This document shows, piece after piece, positions 7,176 through 15,479 of a stretch of DNA of 64,000 nt (the first letter of the stretch is position 1; each line of letters opens with the position of its first letter). The notes beneath the pieces are model-generated. The model was given only the letters and a program-made list of their open reading frames with translations, was not told the DNA's origin and did not search any database. The DNA is taken from positions 744,001 through 808,000 of the forward strand of contig NZ_WTYC01000001.1 in the NCBI RefSeq assembly GCF_009827325.1. The letters are read 5' to 3'. Source of the stretch: Qipengyuania vulgaris. GTDB taxonomy: Bacteria; Pseudomonadota; Alphaproteobacteria; Sphingomonadales; Sphingomonadaceae. Made by a program: the position numbers and the translations under genes.

Positions 7176-9518
7176 ATGAACCTCGTCCGCACCCTGGACC
7201 GCGATGAAGCGCGCCCGCTAAACCAGCTCTCCGGCTTGCCGGCGGACGTATGGGAGCGCCTGAAGCAATTGCTGCTGGGAGGAATCTTGGCACTTGTTCT
7301 CTTCCTGCTAAGTGTTCTCGATCCGGTGGATCAATTGAGCTGGATTTTCCAGTCACGCATCGCAGAACACGATCCGTCAGGCGACATCGTATTCGTCGGT
7401 ACCGAGCGCGACATGGCGGACCCGAATTTGCCTTATCGCCGTGTGGAACTGGCCAATGCATTGCGCAAACTCGACGAGCAGGGCGTCGGCCGAGTATATC
7501 TCGATATCCCATTTCCGGAACACTCTTCGGTGGACGCGGACCAGAGGCTAGCAGAGGCCATCGGGGCACTCGGCCCAAGGGCGATTATCGTCGATAAAAT
7601 CGAGCGGACGGGATCGTCGAACGATCGCGTAATTACCACCATGCCCGGCATTGCCGGCGACGCAAAGCGGGTTGTTTCCCGTCAAGCGAGTAATTGGCTC
7701 GGCTTTTCTTGGACTCGAGAATTTACCAATGTCGTTGATGGTCAGCGCCTGCCTTCCCTAGCGGCCTCCATGGCCGGAATAGAGGATATGCGGGAAGGCA
7801 GCTTTCAAATCGACTACGCAATAAATTCGCAAGAGATTGCAGCATTGGATTTGGCCGAGATCAATTCTGGTACCAGTGGAGTTGAACTGGCCGGTCGCAC
7901 CGTTATTATCGGGGAAGATGCGGGCCTGTCGGAGACGCAGCAAAGAGTGCCGGGTAACTATTCCGTTCCCGATAGCTTTGTCGCTATTTACGGGGCAGAA
8001 ACCCTCAAAGCTGGTAGGACGGGCTTTCTCAATGCCCTCCTTGCCCTTGCAGTTTTTATTTCGGTGTTCGCAGCACTTGTGATGGTTGCCCGTTCGCGGA
8101 AGCGGCGGCGAATTGGCTATGCCATTATTATCGCTTCTCTTCCCCTAGGGCTTTTTGCAGGCAGCCTAGTTGGTTTCCGTGCCGAACTGTCTTACTGCGC
8201 TGCCACCCTTGTCGCCTACGCGATGCTTCGATCACGCACCCGATGGAAGAACCGGATGGCGCTGGTCGACAACGAGACCGGGCTGCCGAAACTTCGCGCT
8301 CTCGAACTCAATACCTCGCAGGATATTCATATCCGCGGCCACTTCGTAGTAGCGCGGATTCACGGCTACGAGCATGTATTCAAGACGCTCCCGAGGGTGG
8401 AACGTGCCCAGTATATTCTGAAATTGGTCGATAGGCTTCGAGCGACAGATGCGGCACTTACGATCTATTCGGAAGGTCACCATCTTGCTTGGCATGCAAA
8501 GGAAGAAGATGGTGAGAGGCTGGCGGAGCATCTCGAAGGTTTGCGAGCCATGTTCGCAGCTCCAGTCAATGTCGCTGGCTCTTCGATCGATGTAGGTATC
8601 AGTTTTGGTGTCGCAAAGCTGGATGGCGATCCTGCAGCGCGGCTCGCTGCCGCTGTGGCAGCCGCCGAGGAAAGCTCAGAGGCTCTTCAACCGATCAAAA
8701 TTGCCGAAAGCAGTTCGCGCTTTGACGAACTTTGGGATCTCTCATTGCGTGCACGTATCGACGAAGCGATGGCGGCAGGTGAAATTTTCTGCGTTTACCA
8801 ACCAAAGTTCGATACCAGAAATGGTACTATGACCGGTGTAGAAGCACTTGTTCGTTGGCAGGATCCTGCACGCGGCTTCATTCCACCGATGCACTTCATC
8901 GCCCAGTGCGAAAAAGCAGGGCGTATGGAAGCTTTAACTGAATTTGTGTTTGAACATGCTTGCGCTGCCGGCCGTCTAATGCACTTCAGCGGGCAAACGA
9001 TCTCTATGTCCATCAACATCTCCGCAACCTTGCTTGCGGACATGAGAATTGTCGGCATGGTACGCAATATTCTTCAGGCAACCGGATTTGACCCTAGGTT
9101 CCTCGTACTCGAAGTTACGGAGACCTCACGTATCGGCAATCTCGAAACCGCCGAAACGGTTCTCAACGAACTCAAGGCATTGGGTACAAGAGTTTCGATG
9201 GACGACTTTGGGGTGGGCGAGACAAACTTCGAAACCTTCTTCGAATTGCCGTTCGATGAGGTGAAAATCGACAGACTTTTTATCGCGAATATGGCGAGGA
9301 GCCAGAAAGCCAAGGCAATAGTCGCTAGTATTGTCCAGATGGGGCGCGATGCGCGAATCGGCGTGGTCGCGGAAGGTGCTGAAGACACTGAGACTTTGAA
9401 ATTGTTAACGGAAATCGGGTGCACGCACGTGCAGGGGTATATACTTGCTAGGCCCATGAGCCTCGATAACCTTATGAATTTTCAAGGATTTGATCTTAAG
9501 AATGCTCTAAAAGTATAG
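7176..9518 (+). CDS. CHASE2 sensor / degenerate GGDEF / EAL c-di-GMP phosphodiesterase
   Basis: 780 aa. TM1 (about 31-48) is followed by a periplasmic CHASE2 domain (about 55-275). Two or three C-terminal TMs follow (about 285-345), then a GGDEF-like domain (about 360-505) and an EAL domain (about 525-775). The GGDEF signature is lost: the loop reads SEGHHLAW at about 432-439, so cyclase activity is unlikely. The EAL domain looks active, keeping E556 in EALVRW, Asn in SINIS, Glu in EVTET, the Asp pair in MDDFG, Lys in VKIDR and Glu in VAEGAE. It should hydrolyse c-di-GMP in response to an extracytoplasmic signal. A promoter for a tiny downstream unit overlaps its last codons. Confidence 0.9.
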   Translation: MNLVRTLDRDEARPLNQLSGLPADVWERLKQLLLGGILALVLFLLSVLDPVDQLSWIFQSRIAEHDPSGDIVFVGTERDMADPNLPYRRVELANALRKLDEQGVGRVYLDIPFPEHSSVDADQRLAEAIGALGPRAIIVDKIERTGSSNDRVITTMPGIAGDAKRVVSRQASNWLGFSWTREFTNVVDGQRLPSLAASMAGIEDMREGSFQIDYAINSQEIAALDLAEINSGTSGVELAGRTVIIGEDAGLSETQQRVPGNYSVPDSFVAIYGAETLKAGRTGFLNALLALAVFISVFAALVMVARSRKRRRIGYAIIIASLPLGLFAGSLVGFRAELSYCAATLVAYAMLRSRTRWKNRMALVDNETGLPKLRALELNTSQDIHIRGHFVVARIHGYEHVFKTLPRVERAQYILKLVDRLRATDAALTIYSEGHHLAWHAKEEDGERLAEHLEGLRAMFAAPVNVAGSSIDVGISFGVAKLDGDPAARLAAAVAAAEESSEALQPIKIAESSSRFDELWDLSLRARIDEAMAAGEIFCVYQPKFDTRNGTMTGVEALVRWQDPARGFIPPMHFIAQCEKAGRMEALTEFVFEHACAAGRLMHFSGQTISMSINISATLLADMRIVGMVRNILQATGFDPRFLVLEVTETSRIGNLETAETVLNELKALGTRVSMDDFGVGETNFETFFELPFDEVKIDRLFIANMARSQKAKAIVASIVQMGRDARIGVVAEGAEDTETLKLLTEIGCTHVQGYILARPMSLDNLMNFQGFDLKNALKV

Positions 9519-9519
9519 T
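9490..9519 (+). promoter_or_regulatory. Candidate sigma-70-type promoter inside the 3' end of the EAL gene
   Basis: TTGATC at 9490-9495 and TATAGT at 9514-9519 with an 18-base spacer. The -10 matches the consensus in 5 of 6 positions and the -35 in 4 of 6. A start near 9526 would give a transcript of about 150 nt, ending at the terminator at 9644-9671. A weaker alternative is TTTACA at 9526-9531 with GACTAT at 9549-9554. Inferred from sequence only. Confidence 0.5.
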
Positions 9520-9557
9520 TAATGCTTTACAAACAATCATAGTTAACAGACTATCTG

Positions 9558-9577
9558 CTCCTGTCCGTCAACAGGAG
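9558..9577 (+). promoter_or_regulatory. Hairpin that sequesters the Shine-Dalgarno site of the 11-codon ORF
   Basis: Arms 9558-9564 (CTCCTGT) and 9571-9577 (ACAGGAG) form seven perfect base pairs around the loop CCGTCA. The 3' arm contains most of the AGGAGG Shine-Dalgarno site (9573-9578), seven bases before the ATG at 9585. Closed, it would block ribosome entry, so translation would depend on melting, a trans-acting RNA or a protein. Confidence 0.6.
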
Positions 9578-9584
9578 GCAAATT

Positions 9585-9620
9585 ATGTGGAACATTTGGG
9601 AATGGCTCATGGGCAAGTAA
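9585..9620 (+). CDS. 11-residue Trp-rich micro-ORF (MWNIWEWLMGK)
   Basis: ATG at 9585, stop TAA at 9618. The peptide MWNIWEWLMGK has three Trp among 11 residues. It is preceded by a consensus AGGAGG at ideal distance, by far the best ribosome site nearby, which argues against a chance ORF. A 5-bp stem (9610-9614 with 9621-9625) puts the stop codon in its loop. A strong terminator follows within 25 bases, so this would be the only ORF on the transcript. It resembles a Trp leader peptide, but no trp gene is downstream. Alternatives are a dual-function small RNA, a type I toxin-like peptide (very short for one) or a decoy leader. I do not recognise a family. Confidence 0.5.
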   Translation: MWNIWEWLMGK

Positions 9621-9643
9621 GCCCACAAGCTTGTAAACGTTTT

Positions 9644-9677
9644 GAAAGGGCCCCTTGAAAGGGGCCCTTTCTGTTTT
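9644..9677 (+). terminator. Strong rho-independent terminator
   Basis: Arms 9644-9654 (GAAAGGGCCCC) and 9661-9671 pair perfectly over 11 bp; the flanking T9655-A9660 adds a twelfth pair around a TGAA loop. TGTTTT follows. It ends the micro-ORF transcript and isolates it from the transglutaminase-like gene that starts at 9736. Confidence 0.85.
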
Positions 9678-9735
9678 GAGTGCATGTTTGACCGCGCGGT
9701 TAGAAACTCCAAGGGCACTGCAACGTTGAGACGGT

Positions 9736-10533
9736 ATGACTATCTCTATCGCGTCTCGCTTCTCCTTCTGCCTGCCCCAGACAACAGATATACTCCTTCA
9801 ATTCGAGGCTGCTGCGATCCCAGAGCAGCGAATCTTGTCGAGCGACACTAACCTGACCGAAGCGGAACATTGCGCTTGGGTCCCGGCGCAAGATGACATC
9901 GGCGAACGCATCTGGATCAGGGCGCAAGGCGATTTCAGTGTCTCATATCGGGCGGAAGTGGAGCTCGAACGCCAACTCGCCGACATTTCCACGCTTCGCC
10001 GTCTTGAGCCTCACGACATGCCGGGCGAGGCAGTCCAGTATCTTTTCGATAGCCGTTATTGCGCTGCCGACCGATTTCAGACCTTTGTCGATGAAGAGTT
10101 CGCCGGCACTGACGGAGGCGAACGCATCGCAGCCATCAGCGACTGGATGAAGCGCAAGCTGACATACAGCCCGGGCGCCTCCGGCCCGCAAACGACCGCG
10201 CTCGATACCTTTATCGAACGACGCGGCATTTGCCGCGACTATGCGCACGTCATGATCGCTCTTGCCCGAGCCAGCACCATACCGGCGCGTTATGTAGCGT
10301 GCTATGCACCGGGCGTTGACCCGCCTGACTTTCACGCCGTGGCCGAAGTATTTCTAGACGATCCGAACACAGATGGCGGTGGTACCTGGCAGTTGGTGGA
10401 TCCGACCGGCATGGCCGACCCGTCAGAAACAGTGAAGATTGGCGTGGGTCGTGACGCTGCGGATGTGAGTTTCCTTACCAGCTTCGGGATCGCCGACTTC
10501 GGCGACAAGAGCGTGGTGGTGAAGGCATTTTGA
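9736..10533 (+). CDS. Transglutaminase-like domain protein
   Basis: 265 aa, no signal peptide. An N-terminal beta-rich region (about 1-95) precedes a transglutaminase/protease-like fold. The catalytic triad is visible: C166 in RRGICRDYAH, H200 in DFHAVAEVF and D222 in WQLVDPTG. This is the bacterial 'transglutaminase-like cysteine peptidase' group, often cytoplasmic and of unknown substrate. It stands between the terminator at 9644-9677 and the zwf operon, on the same strand as both, with a 94-base gap to zwf. No strong Shine-Dalgarno sequence precedes the ATG. Confidence 0.85.
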   Translation: MTISIASRFSFCLPQTTDILLQFEAAAIPEQRILSSDTNLTEAEHCAWVPAQDDIGERIWIRAQGDFSVSYRAEVELERQLADISTLRRLEPHDMPGEAVQYLFDSRYCAADRFQTFVDEEFAGTDGGERIAAISDWMKRKLTYSPGASGPQTTALDTFIERRGICRDYAHVMIALARASTIPARYVACYAPGVDPPDFHAVAEVFLDDPNTDGGGTWQLVDPTGMADPSETVKIGVGRDAADVSFLTSFGIADFGDKSVVVKAF

Positions 10534-10627
10534 TCGTCCTTAACGAATAGGAATGCGGCGGTCTGGCGCAGTTCCTGCCACGCTGATAACACGATGACCA
10601 AGGGAGAAGCGTGTCAATGGATCGTAT

Positions 10628-12076
10628 ATGGCGGAAGTGAAGTTCGAGGCCGATCGGCTGCTTTTGTTCGGAGCGACCGGCGATTTGTCGCAGCGGATGC
10701 TGTTGCCCTCGCTCTGCGCACTACACGCCGATGGATTGCTCGATCCAGACCTGAGGATCATTGCCACCGCACGATCCGAAATGACGACAAAGGATTTTCG
10801 GCAGTTTGCGCGCGAAGCACTGGAAAAACATCTGCCGAAGAACAGGCGCGGCCCGATGGCCGACTTCCTTAACCGGCTTAGCTACATCCCGGTCGATGCT
10901 ACCACCCCGGAAGGCTATGACGCGCTCGCAGCAGAGGTGGGCCAGTACCGCGGCCTTGCCATTTTCCTATCGACTGCCCCGAGCCTTTTCGAACCAACAA
11001 TTTCCGGACTTAAGTGGGTCGGACTGACGAATGGCACTGCCCGCATCGCGCTCGAGAAACCGCTCGGCACCGATCTGGCCAGCAGCTGCGAAATCAACGA
11101 TGCGGTAGCAAAGGCATTCAGCGAAGACCGTATTTTTCGCATCGACCATTACCTCGGCAAGGAGACAGTGCAGAATCTTCTGGCACTGCGTTTCGCCAAC
11201 ATTCTGCTCGAGCCCGTCTGGAACTCGAACTACATAGAGCACGTCCAGATCACGGTTGCGGAAACCGTCGGCCTGGAATCGCGCGTTGCCTATTATGATG
11301 ACAGTGGCGCCCTGCGCGACATGGTTCAGAACCACATGCTGCAGCTGCTGGCGCTCGTTGCGATGGAGCCGCCCACCAGTTTCGAAGCTACGGCTGTGCG
11401 CGACGAGAAGGTCAAGGTCCTGCGCGCATTGCGGCCGGTCAATGCGGAGGAGGTCGTCACCGGCCAGTATCGCGCCGGTGCGGTCGAAAGGAAAAGCGTG
11501 CCCGGCTATGATGAGGAACTGGGCAAGGACAGCGTTACCGAAACTTATGTCGCACTCAAGGCACATGTCGACAACTGGCGCTGGCGCGGCGTGCCCTTCT
11601 ACCTTCGGCACGGCAAACGCATGCCTGAACGCGTAACCGAAATCGTGGTCCAGTTTCGCTGCATCCCGCATTCGATTTTCGAAGGTCGTGGCGCGAAGAC
11701 CGAGCCAAACCGGTTGGTGATAGAAATCCAGCCGAAGGAAAACATTCAGTTGACCATGATGGCGAAGGTACCGGGCCTCGGAAACGAAGGGCTGCGACTG
11801 CGGCCTGTCCCGCTCGATATCACCATGCCCGATGCATTTTCGGACGTGGTGCGTCGCATCGCCTACGAGCGACTACTGCTCGATCTCATCAACGGCGACC
11901 AGACATTGTTCGTCCGTCGTGACGAGATCGAAGCACAGTGGGACTTTATCGACCACATTCGAAGGCTCTGGACAGAGAACGGCACGCAGCCGAAGCCTTA
12001 TGCTGCGGGCACCTGGGGGCCGAGCGCCGCCATCGCGCTCGCCGAACGAGACGGGGTCACCTGGCACGATGACTAA
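10628..12076 (+). CDS. zwf: Glucose-6-phosphate 1-dehydrogenase
   Basis: 482 aa. It oxidises glucose-6-phosphate to 6-phosphogluconolactone with NAD(P)+. The Rossmann motif is GATGDLS at 15-21 and the substrate/catalytic signature RIDHYLGKE is at 171-179. It is the first gene of an overlapping Entner-Doudoroff operon; edd starts eight bases before its stop. No gene for 6-phosphogluconolactonase (pgl) is in the cluster. The start ATG at 10628 gives the natural N-terminus; no good Shine-Dalgarno sequence is seen. Confidence 0.97.
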   Translation: MAEVKFEADRLLLFGATGDLSQRMLLPSLCALHADGLLDPDLRIIATARSEMTTKDFRQFAREALEKHLPKNRRGPMADFLNRLSYIPVDATTPEGYDALAAEVGQYRGLAIFLSTAPSLFEPTISGLKWVGLTNGTARIALEKPLGTDLASSCEINDAVAKAFSEDRIFRIDHYLGKETVQNLLALRFANILLEPVWNSNYIEHVQITVAETVGLESRVAYYDDSGALRDMVQNHMLQLLALVAMEPPTSFEATAVRDEKVKVLRALRPVNAEEVVTGQYRAGAVERKSVPGYDEELGKDSVTETYVALKAHVDNWRWRGVPFYLRHGKRMPERVTEIVVQFRCIPHSIFEGRGAKTEPNRLVIEIQPKENIQLTMMAKVPGLGNEGLRLRPVPLDITMPDAFSDVVRRIAYERLLLDLINGDQTLFVRRDEIEAQWDFIDHIRRLWTENGTQPKPYAAGTWGPSAAIALAERDGVTWHDD

Positions 12077-13883
12077 ACAGCTTAACGATACGATCCACCG
12101 CGTAACCCAGCGAGTGATCGAAAACTCGCGCAGATCGCGCAACGACTATCTCGACCTGATGGACCGCGAGGGTGATCGGCAGGTAAACCGCGGAACCATG
12201 TCCTGCTCCAACCTCGCGCATGCCTACGCGGGGGCCGAGGAAGACCAGACGGCAATCATGGCCGCGCGCGGACCAAACCTCGGCATCGTATCGGCTTATA
12301 ACGATATGCTGTCGGCCCACCAGCCATACTATCGCTACCCGGAACGAATGAAGATTTGGGCGCGCGAAGTGGGCGCGACCGTGCAGGTTGCTGGCGGTAC
12401 GCCAGCCATGTGCGACGGCGTGACGCAAGGCGAAGACGGGATGGAACTCTCGCTCTTCAGCCGCGATACCATCGCGCTCTCCACCGTCGTCGCGCTTAGC
12501 CACGCGATGTATGATGGCGTGGCACTGCTGGGAATTTGCGACAAGATCGTGCCCGGCTTGCTGATGGGCGCTCTGCGGTTCGGACACCTGCCAGCGATCT
12601 TCGTGCCTTCGGGACCGATGGGGACGGGCATCTCGAACAAGGAAAAGCAGCGGACCCGCCAGCTCTATGCCGAGGGCAAGGTTGGGCGCAAGGAATTACT
12701 GGCGAGCGAAATGGGCAGCTATCACTCGCCAGGCACCTGCACCTTCTACGGCACCGCCAATTCCAACCAGATGATGATGGAGATGATGGGTCTCCACGTA
12801 CCGGGTGCAGCCTTTGTGCCTCCGGGTGTCAAGCTTCGGCAGGAAATGAGCCGGGCGGCGACGCAGCGGCTTGCCGCGATAAACAAGGACGGCGACGATT
12901 TCCGTCCGCTCGGTCGCGTAGTAGACGAAAAGGCGATCATCAACGCCGCCATCGGACTCCTCGCCACAGGCGGCTCGACGAACCATGCAATCCACATTCC
13001 TGCCATGGCCCGGGCGGCGGGCATCATCTTCGACTGGACCGACCTCGCCGAACTTTCGCGCGCCGTACCGCTGGTGGCACGCGTCTATCCTAACGGATCG
13101 GGCGACGTGAACCACTTTCATGACGCGGGCGGCATGGGTTATGTCATCGGGACGCTTCTCGATGAAGGGCTGGCGCATGGTGATATCCTCACGGTCTGGG
13201 ATGGCGGTTTCGAAGCCTATTCGCACGAGCCGGGCATGGATGGCGATACGCTGACCTGGCGTGATCCCGGGCCTAGCGGCGATACCGAGATGCTTCGTCC
13301 CGCTTCCGACCCGTTTCAAAGCGATGGCGGAATGCGGCTGGTCGAGGGCAACATTGGCCGCGCCTGCTTCAAATCTTCCGCAGTCGACCGCGAGCGCTGG
13401 ACGGTGGAAGCCCCCTGCCGCATTTTCGAGGACCAACCCTCGGTCAACGAGGCCTTCCGCAAAGGAGAACTCGACCGCGACGTTGTGGTTGTCGTCCGCT
13501 TTCAGGGTCCGCGCGCAAACGGAATGCCCGAACTGCACAAGCTCACTCCTGCTCTTGGGGTGTTACAGGACCGGGGCTACCGGGTAGCGCTGGTAACCGA
13601 TGGACGCATGTCTGGAGCGAGCGGCAAGGTCCCGGCGGCGATCCACTGCACGCCCGAGGCCTTGGGGGGAGGCCCTCTATCCAGACTGCGCGATGGGGAC
13701 GTGGTCCGGGTGTGTGCCGAAACCGGCACGCTTGCGACTACCGCTGACCTCGGCACCCGGGACCCGGCACCAGAGCCCCAGCCCAAAATCGGTATGGGAC
13801 GCGAATTCTTCGCCATGTTCCGGGCTAACGCAGATGGTGCCGAGCAGGGTGCTTCGTCAATGCTAGCCATGGCGGAATTGTAA
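12069..13883 (+). CDS. edd: Phosphogluconate dehydratase
   Basis: 604 aa, an IlvD/Edd-family [4Fe-4S] dehydratase converting 6-phosphogluconate to 2-keto-3-deoxy-6-phosphogluconate. The opening, with NSRRSRNDYLDLMDRE and later SCSNLAHAYAG, is typical of Edd and not of IlvD. CDG (in MCDGVTQG) and GICDK supply cluster cysteines, and GRMSGASG is near the C-terminus. The frame is open upstream to 11832, but the ATG at 12069 fits the family start and overlaps the zwf stop by eight bases, as expected for coupled translation. Confidence 0.97.
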   Translation: MTKQLNDTIHRVTQRVIENSRRSRNDYLDLMDREGDRQVNRGTMSCSNLAHAYAGAEEDQTAIMAARGPNLGIVSAYNDMLSAHQPYYRYPERMKIWAREVGATVQVAGGTPAMCDGVTQGEDGMELSLFSRDTIALSTVVALSHAMYDGVALLGICDKIVPGLLMGALRFGHLPAIFVPSGPMGTGISNKEKQRTRQLYAEGKVGRKELLASEMGSYHSPGTCTFYGTANSNQMMMEMMGLHVPGAAFVPPGVKLRQEMSRAATQRLAAINKDGDDFRPLGRVVDEKAIINAAIGLLATGGSTNHAIHIPAMARAAGIIFDWTDLAELSRAVPLVARVYPNGSGDVNHFHDAGGMGYVIGTLLDEGLAHGDILTVWDGGFEAYSHEPGMDGDTLTWRDPGPSGDTEMLRPASDPFQSDGGMRLVEGNIGRACFKSSAVDRERWTVEAPCRIFEDQPSVNEAFRKGELDRDVVVVVRFQGPRANGMPELHKLTPALGVLQDRGYRVALVTDGRMSGASGKVPAAIHCTPEALGGGPLSRLRDGDVVRVCAETGTLATTADLGTRDPAPEPQPKIGMGREFFAMFRANADGAEQGASSMLAMAEL

Positions 13884-13884
13884 G

Positions 13885-14868
13885 ATGGACCTCGTCAGCG
13901 TCGACATCGGCGGCACCCATGCGCGTTTTTCGATTGCCAGCATTTTGGCCGATGGATCGATCTCGCTCAGCGACCCTGAAACGATCCACACAGAGGATCA
14001 TGCGAGCTTCCAGACAGCTTGGGAGGATTTCCGCGAGCGTATGGGGGGCAATCTCCCCCCGCGCGTTTCGATGGCGATCGCTGGCCCGGTGGGCGGCGAA
14101 GTCATCCGCTTTACCAATAACCCGTGGATCATCCGCCCAGCGCTGGTGCAGGAAAAGCTCGGGTCCGAAAAATACACCATCGTCAATGATTTTGAGGCCG
14201 TGGCGCATGCAGTTGCCCGGGTTGGTCAAGACGAGTTCATTCACCTCTCTGGTCCCGACAAACCGCTCTCTCCCACTGGGCGGTTGAGCGTGCTCGGCCC
14301 GGGCACGGGTCTTGGCGTCGCCCACCTGTACCGCGAGCCCGACGGGACATATCGCGTGTCGGCCACCGAAGGCGGCCACATCGATTTCGCTCCGCTCGAC
14401 CAGATCGACGATGCGATCCTTGCCCGGTTGCGAAAGCGCCACAACCGCGTCTCCGTTGAACGCGTAGTTGCAGGGCCGGCAATCTCCGACATTTACCAGA
14501 CGCTCGCCGTGATGGAAGGCAAGCCGGTCGCGGAGGAAGACGATATCGCGATCTGGACCCGCGGGCAGGATGGCAGCGACAGCCTCGCTGCTGCGGCCGT
14601 CGATCGCTTCTGTATGGCTCTCGGCAGCGTAGCCGGCGACATCGCGCTGGCCCAAGGCGGCTTCGGCGGTGTCGTTATCGCAGGCGGTTTGGGCTACAGA
14701 ATTCGCGAAACGCTGGTGAAGTCAGGCTTTGCCGAGCGTTTCAAGGCCAAGGGCCGCTTTCAGGAGCTTATGGCCTCAATCCCGGTCAAGCTTATCGTTC
14801 ACCCGCAGCCAGGCCTCTTCGGTGCCGCGGCAGCCTATGCTTCAGAACACGGGATTTCCGACTCATGA
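13885..14868 (+). CDS. glk: Glucokinase
   Basis: 327 aa, hexokinase/ASKHA fold, phosphorylating free glucose to glucose-6-phosphate with ATP. The phosphate-binding DIGGTHAR motif is at 7-14 and the catalytic Asp is D102 in VNDFEA. GPGTGLGVAHL and a late glycine-rich IAGGLGYRI segment complete the fold. It starts one base after the edd stop and its stop overlaps the eda ATG (ATGA). Having glk inside the Entner-Doudoroff operon implies import of free glucose without a sugar PTS. Confidence 0.95.
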   Translation: MDLVSVDIGGTHARFSIASILADGSISLSDPETIHTEDHASFQTAWEDFRERMGGNLPPRVSMAIAGPVGGEVIRFTNNPWIIRPALVQEKLGSEKYTIVNDFEAVAHAVARVGQDEFIHLSGPDKPLSPTGRLSVLGPGTGLGVAHLYREPDGTYRVSATEGGHIDFAPLDQIDDAILARLRKRHNRVSVERVVAGPAISDIYQTLAVMEGKPVAEEDDIAIWTRGQDGSDSLAAAAVDRFCMALGSVAGDIALAQGGFGGVVIAGGLGYRIRETLVKSGFAERFKAKGRFQELMASIPVKLIVHPQPGLFGAAAAYASEHGISDS

Positions 14869-15479
14869 CGACCATCGCCGACATCATGCAGACCGCGCCG
14901 GTTATCCCGGTGATCGTGGTAGACGAGGTGGAACATGCCGTACCGCTCGCACGCGCTCTCGTAGCAGGCGGATTGCGCGTGCTCGAAGTCACTTTACGGA
15001 CGCCCGCAGCGCTCGATGCGATCCGTGCGATGAAAAACGTGGACGGCGCCATCGTGGGCGCGGGCACTGTCACCAATCAGCAAGAACTTGCCGCTGCCAT
15101 CGAGGCGGGCAGCGAGTTCATTGTCTCGCCAGGCCTTACCGATACCCTCGGGAAAGCGGCGATCCGCGAGCGTATCCCTTTCCTTCCGGGCATCGCCAAT
15201 GCGGGCGACATTATGCGAGGCCTGGATCTCGGCCTCACCCACTTCAAGTTTTTCCCGGCCATGGCGGCAGGCGGACTACCTGCGCTCAAGGCACTTGCAG
15301 CACCGTTCGGGCAATGCCGCTTCTGCCCGACCGGCGGCATCACACTCGAGAATGCACCCGAATGGCTTGGATTCGATCCGGTCCATTGCGTGGGCGGCAG
15401 TTGGGTAGCGCCGCGCGGCGCGGTCGATGAAGTCACGGTTGAGAAGGTGGCACGCGAAGCGGCTTCATTGGCCAGCTAG
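14865..15479 (+). CDS. eda: KDPG / 4-hydroxy-2-oxoglutarate aldolase
   Basis: 204 aa class I aldolase splitting KDPG to pyruvate and glyceraldehyde-3-phosphate. The Schiff-base Lys is K128 in THFKFFPA, with the catalytic Glu E41 and R45 in LEVTLRT, and the GAGTVT phosphate loop is present. Its ATG overlaps the glk stop by four bases and its TAG overlaps the tail of the convergent tilS. It is the last gene of zwf-edd-glk-eda. Confidence 0.97.
   Translation: MTTIADIMQTAPVIPVIVVDEVEHAVPLARALVAGGLRVLEVTLRTPAALDAIRAMKNVDGAIVGAGTVTNQQELAAAIEAGSEFIVSPGLTDTLGKAAIRERIPFLPGIANAGDIMRGLDLGLTHFKFFPAMAAGGLPALKALAAPFGQCRFCPTGGITLENAPEWLGFDPVHCVGGSWVAPRGAVDEVTVEKVAREAASLAS

Follow-up and report, generated by a model that had tools for sequence, protein, structure and literature searches.

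A micropeptide gene with a predicted translational gate, linked to a CHASE2-EAL gene in sphingomonads

The micropeptide locus and its relatives

The DNA analyzed here, referred to as the window, is a stretch of 64,000 nucleotides from Qipengyuania vulgaris (contig NZ_WTYC01000001.1, positions 744,001 to 808,000), and all coordinates are those of the window. Between a CHASE2-EAL gene and a transglutaminase-like gene lies a complete small gene encoding the 11-residue micropeptide MWNIWEWLMGK (9585-9620, plus strand). This gene had been picked out by an earlier reading of the letters alone (the sequence-only reading), and the open reading frame (ORF), the hairpin over the Shine-Dalgarno (SD) site, the stem around the stop codon, the palindrome and the terminator that it described are all present. 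The key fact, which that reading could not see, is the link of the micropeptide gene to the CHASE2-EAL gene.

The CHASE2-EAL gene (7176-9518, plus strand) adjoins the micropeptide gene upstream and encodes 780 residues with matches to the Pfam families EAL (E = 2.5e-64) and CHASE2 (E = 1.2e-9). Its TAG stop codon (9516-9518) falls inside a conserved block, ATAGTTAATGCTTTACAAACAATCATAGTTAAC (9515-9547), which is a probable promoter or operator. The SD-sequestering hairpin (9556-9580) follows, with CTCCTGT at 9558-9564 paired to ACAGGAG at 9571-9577 and the SD site AGGAGG (9573-9578) inside it. Downstream of the hairpin come the ORF, a 5-bp stem that holds the stop codon in its loop (9610-9625; TGGGC at 9610-9614 with GCCCA at 9621-9625), the palindrome ACAAGCTTGT (9625-9634), and an intrinsic terminator with a 12-bp stem (9644-9671) and a T-rich tail reaching 9678. 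The predicted fold of 9526-9680 was more stable than that of all 200 shuffled sequences (z = -4.89), with much of the z-score supplied by the terminator. The transglutaminase-like gene (9736-10533) is the downstream neighbor.

A DNA search of 99 genomes, that of Q. vulgaris included, found the element in 22, every one of the same genus. Of 60 genus genomes, 54 gave a match to a covariance model trained on those 22 sequences, one match each; of 199 genomes sampled from the family, 25 did, and these represent 13 of 96 genera. The two samples share four positive genomes, leaving 75 distinct genomes and loci. A related SD-preceded peptide was present in 74 of these 75 loci. The self-contained gene with its SD site hidden in a stem and its strong terminator, as first proposed, goes beyond chance, since its ORF, its SD hairpin and its terminator all recur in relatives.

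At every one of the 75 loci, the gene that ends directly before the micropeptide gene is a CHASE2-EAL relative (33.7-100% identity). Between the stop codon of that relative and the micropeptide ATG there are 57-68 nucleotides in the 74 loci measured, and in these the initial nine bases of the conserved block (9515-9523 in the window) include the stop codon, so that gene end and promoter block overlap. The six genus genomes in which the model found no micropeptide gene also have no CHASE2-EAL ortholog, the relatives there being only 26-30% identical. The transglutaminase gene on the other side was found downstream at 47 of the 54 genus loci and at none of the 21 others, in the 1-1.5 kb of flank examined.

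Linkage was also assessed starting from the CHASE2-EAL gene, by sampling 95 homologs in 86 of the 199 family genomes. Under a single rule, such a peptide follows 57 of the 65 homologs that reach E ≤ 6e-80 and 3 of the 30 that fall short of it; this rule passes over looser aromatic peptides visible by eye (L104, L105, L106 and L131) and missed the peptide of L158, which has an unlisted SD site and was recovered by a profile as L271, and none of these was counted as positive. No peptide was found inside the reach of the rule at L112, L113 or L137. As a control, 289 other ORFs of 200 residues or more were taken from the window and from loci of at least 5 kb found by the motif scan described below, and only 2 of them were followed by a qualifying peptide. 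One of these is an overlapping frame at L191, which is a linked locus, and the other is the ORF preceding a unit in Blastomonas (L218).

Eight CHASE2-EAL relatives in the six ortholog-less genus genomes yielded four peptides of another subtype, for example MSIWKWVGNLVSPR. The loci of this subtype (L179, L183, L184 and L185, with MSIWKWVGNLVSPR, MWEYFRTLFGAR and others) have a hairpin of GCAC/GTGC type ahead of the ATG.

Conservation of the peptide, the ribosome site and the upstream block

The micropeptides range from 10 to 41 residues, and from 10 to 17 within the genus, around a core of consensus [FI]-W-x-W-[LIF]-[FLM]-G. The looseness of this core bears on the pattern M-x(3)-W-x-W-L-x-G-[KR] offered by the sequence-only reading: it fits only 12 of the 54 genus peptides. 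Residues were counted in 81 of 114 peptides, those whose core reaches 8 residues or more (75 of the 81 being distinct). Successive positions hold I or F in 72, W in 75, then D, E, K and others, and W in 69, both tryptophan counts being partly by construction because the search motif demands aromatic residues there. The sites that follow hold L, I or F in 64, F, L or M in 64 and G in 46. Of the three Trp of the window's peptide, only the two of W-x-W are conserved; in 10 of the 53 cores the place of the first is taken by Phe or Ile. Distant peptides commonly carry a basic N-terminal extension, as in MAKRTKQPVRGFWDWLLGGGWSN. At L076 of genome G156, the exception among the 75 loci, the ORF as judged by eye begins with GTG and gives MIDLIAIALGSRRGS; it contains no Trp and offers a natural test of the role of this residue.

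Codon changes in the core are mostly synonymous. The ratio of nonsynonymous to synonymous change (pN/pS), computed over 8 codons of the core for 53 of the 54 genus sequences, was 0.33 in the reading frame, and the two alternative frames gave 0.68 and 0.87; in this alignment, anchoring on the aromatic motif (which dropped L086) mildly favors conservation, and pS is high (0.75).

Pairing of the SD site is kept across the loci. In the 74 loci of the near group, the mean unpaired probability of the SD site was 0.16, as against 0.43 when the upstream sequence was shuffled, and 41 loci were at or below the 5% level. The corresponding values in 40 distant loci were 0.21 and 0.35, with 15 at the 5% level. 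The hairpin also covaries: at one core position the 114 loci, which are related so that the counts are not independent, have U-A in 68, C-G in 24, U-G in 9 and no pair in 13, and the flanking positions show many pair types. RNAalifold run on a MAFFT alignment missed the hairpin, because its arms shift and misalign; the pairing was therefore assessed in ensembles of each single sequence, compared with shuffles. By prediction, therefore, translation of the micropeptide would be gated by the hairpin. Conservation of the remaining structures was uneven. Of the 74 loci, 69 have a terminator-like site downstream, against an expected 2.6, and of the 40 distant loci 26 have one, against an expected 1.8. 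The stop-codon stem was enriched in the near group (mean score 11.0 versus 7.8 in shuffles; 21 of 74 loci at p ≤ 0.05) but weak in distant relatives (9.4 versus 8.0; 2 of 40). The 10-base palindrome, also singled out initially, is present in 1 of 75 loci.

The upstream block has the consensus ATAGTTAAnGCTTTACAAACAnnnATRGTTAAY, with 21 of 33 columns invariant in the 22 aligned genomes, and the genome has a single occurrence of its core TTTACAAACANNNATRGTTAA when as many as 3 mismatches are allowed. The promoter originally suggested, TTGATC and TATAGT at a spacing of 18, could not be upheld: it is one weak match where shuffled sequences gave 1.7, the pair is found only in the window's own locus among the 75, and TATAGT alone is found in 5 of 75. 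The binding consensus of the regulator CtrA is given as TTAA-N7-TTAAC in two papers (PMC7200025, PMC9437464), and retention of the CckA-ChpT-CtrA relay in Sphingomonadales is described in another (PMC2877005). At the position of the block, 30 of the 40 distant loci have such a CtrA-type box matching in at least 8 of 9 positions, compared with 1.1 expected. The box upstream of distant members is the same as that of the CtrA regulon promoters in the former two sources, and is degenerate in the window. Control of the micropeptide family by CtrA is likely on these matches; for Q. vulgaris itself it is putative.

The gene away from the CHASE2-EAL gene

A scan of 84,980 species genomes, made without regard to neighbors, used a nucleotide pattern encoding G-[FI]-W-[DE]-W-x-x-G-G, which catches this subtype only. 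It yielded 40 stretches, of which 30 were short ORFs with an SD site; the other 10 were discounted because they lay in long frames or had no SD-preceded start. Twenty-nine of the short ORFs are in records labeled as sphingomonad groups, and one (L194) is in a metagenome-assembled genome labeled Rhodospirillales. The L194 peptide differs from that of the sphingomonad locus L224 only by one additional Met and at one further residue. That record is probably mislabeled or misbinned.

A CHASE2-EAL gene lies upstream of 27 of the 30 short ORFs. One of the remaining three, L203, has only 115 nucleotides of upstream sequence, and the other two are the Blastomonas loci L200 and L218, which have no adjoining CHASE2-EAL gene. 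Both retain the upstream block (CtrA-type match 8 of 9), the peptide and a terminator-like hairpin. The persistence of the unit in this position means that transcription from the CHASE2-EAL gene is not required, and to judge from these loci the micropeptide gene is probably a transcription unit of its own. Genome G253 (locus L267) shares an identical 1-kb micropeptide stretch with Blastomonas aquatica L200. Its CHASE2-EAL gene is on a different contig, has no micropeptide behind it, and scores like those of the linked genomes; in G253 both genes are retained although separated.

Beyond the family, a profile of 22 peptides matched 16 of 289 genomes of the class at E ≤ 0.1, one of them within the family (G112). 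The best match outside the family (L287, E = 5e-4) has no CHASE2-EAL gene in the 1.5 kb upstream, and at another, L297, no peptide was found. In another family of the same order, CHASE2-EAL matches in nine genomes cover the EAL half only. Among plasmids, one peptide gave three matches at E 4-8, which we took as chance, and the CHASE2-EAL protein had no match at E ≤ 1e-50.

Possible functions

No described family was found for the gene, and the sequence-only reading knew of none. Pfam and NCBIfam gave no match at E ≤ 1 for 8 longer peptides, and PHROGs none for 20 of 22; the 11-residue peptide of the window is too short for these three. In Rfam nothing reached the gathering score, and 9480-9700 gave only 10 sub-threshold matches. 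Among the titles and opening lines of abstracts listed from the open-licence literature of PubMed Central, none described the gene. The micropeptide gene belongs to an undescribed sphingomonad family of a known general kind, that of operon-linked microproteins and gated small ORFs. It is a conserved gene family far below the usual size limits of annotation, and at the model-hit loci its core of about seven residues has persisted although the identity of the CHASE2-EAL partner falls as low as 34%.

The existence of the gene is well supported: at the level of sequence we have a conserved peptide, a covarying SD hairpin, a terminator, linkage to the CHASE2-EAL gene and persistence in two unlinked Blastomonas loci. 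Its function we infer. The reading that we prefer, and to which we give about an even chance, is that of a CtrA-controlled, translationally gated micropeptide working with the membrane CHASE2-EAL protein, a cyclic di-GMP (c-di-GMP) phosphodiesterase by its domains. CtrA would switch transcription of the micropeptide with the cell cycle or the motility state, and the SD hairpin would keep translation off until some factor opens it. The aromatic peptide might then sit at the membrane surface or dock on a hydrophobic protein groove. There it would tune or place the predicted phosphodiesterase, such that c-di-GMP breakdown would track the cell cycle. The helical amphipathicity of the aromatic core at 100 degrees (0.39 in distant peptides versus 0.30 shuffled) is modest and would suit a peptide that docks on a membrane surface or protein groove. 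In its boldest form, in which a cell-cycle-timed, gated peptide of about 10 residues would bind the CHASE2-EAL phosphodiesterase and set c-di-GMP breakdown as a minimal second-messenger switch across sphingomonads, the proposal is tentative and rather less likely to be right than wrong. The tie to c-di-GMP together with the CtrA-type box makes it testable whether micropeptides time c-di-GMP signaling in the cell cycle, and the covarying hairpin raises the question of what opens it.

Among the closest known systems are CydX, KdpF and AcrZ, operon-linked microproteins of larger membrane proteins that span the membrane with 25-50 residues. As there, a tiny peptide is encoded beside a large membrane protein; unlike there, 10-17 residues suffice within the genus, and the gene has its own promoter block and a gated ribosome site.

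Several observations weigh against the preferred reading. Only 21 of the 74 near-group loci have a CtrA-type box matching in at least 8 of 9 positions (2.9 expected), and the box of the window is degenerate, with 7 of 9. The SD hairpin of the window is not significant individually (0.09 versus 0.23, 30% of shuffles being as low), the SD site is open in L061, L086 and L117, and it is only partly closed in the Blastomonas units L200 and L218 (unpaired 0.35 and 0.36). The linkage has exceptions, since the peptide rule fails for 8 of the 65 best CHASE2-EAL homologs. The amphipathicity in the near group exceeds that of shuffles weakly (0.42 versus 0.30), and the ORF without Trp at L076 belongs to a weak model match (E = 0.005).

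The alternative that survives best is a conserved, CtrA-controlled, gated micropeptide with a role of its own, in the membrane, the envelope or cell division, that stays behind the CHASE2-EAL gene by old synteny. The two Blastomonas loci favor it, since the unit there has no need of the neighbor in cis. However, the ortholog and the model match are absent together in six of six genus genomes, linkage holds where the other neighbor differs, and the unlinked genome G253 has kept a CHASE2-EAL gene that scores like those of linked genomes. We regard an independent role as possible but doubtful.

The sequence-only reading had also proposed a dual-function RNA or a toxin-like peptide, and both remain as rivals. 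A structured transcript of about 130 nucleotides that acts as a base-pairing small RNA, with the peptide secondary, would suit the compact unit with its SD hairpin, stop-codon stem and strong terminator. Yet the hairpin arms vary with pairing kept, unlike a conserved seed, and the constant part is the peptide core, which makes such an RNA improbable. A type I toxin-like hydrophobic peptide silenced by its own SD hairpin is a slighter prospect still. Type I toxins such as TimP are likewise small peptides, usually with an SD site hidden in mRNA structure, and here too a short hydrophobic aromatic peptide would, by prediction, have its translation blocked in this way. A single scan of 8500-11500, the only means by which an antisense gene was sought, showed no minus-strand promoter. 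Unlike the type I toxins, the micropeptide has a single copy per genome and a fixed place behind the CHASE2-EAL gene in the model-hit loci, including one match in each of 54 genus genomes; a DNA search found one copy of the unit in the Q. vulgaris genome, the block core also occurs there once, and the basic extension of many distant peptides also argues against a toxin.

A leader or attenuator that senses Trp for the next gene, one form of the regulated leader suggested at first, is very unlikely. Three Trp codons among 11 and a terminator speak for it, and peTrpL of Sinorhizobium meliloti, another very short alphaproteobacterial peptide, reportedly contains Trp in consecutive positions. A transcription attenuator has peTrpL as its leader peptide (rnTrpL; PMC7298713), and compared with peTrpL the micropeptide lies behind a CHASE2-EAL gene, has its own terminator and a conserved SD hairpin, and keeps W-x-W rather than a run of Trp codons. 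The first Trp is variable, the gene is terminated, and in place of a constant biosynthetic gene the downstream neighbor is transglutaminase-like and was not found in 28 of 75 flanks of 1-1.5 kb. The attenuator of a DUF1127 gene in S. meliloti, an upstream ORF, is likewise a short ORF, and base-pairing can occlude its ribosome site; it controls a gene on the same transcript (PMC12218461), whereas the micropeptide unit is closed by a terminator and followed by a variable gene. A functionless chance ORF between two genes, for which its mere 11 codons might speak, is hardly credible given related peptides in 74 of 75 loci, in-frame codon bias and only 2 hits among 289 control ORFs.

Farther downstream in the window, the ORFs in 10628-15479 resemble an Entner-Doudoroff set, which we take to be glucose-6-phosphate dehydrogenase, Edd, glucokinase and Eda.

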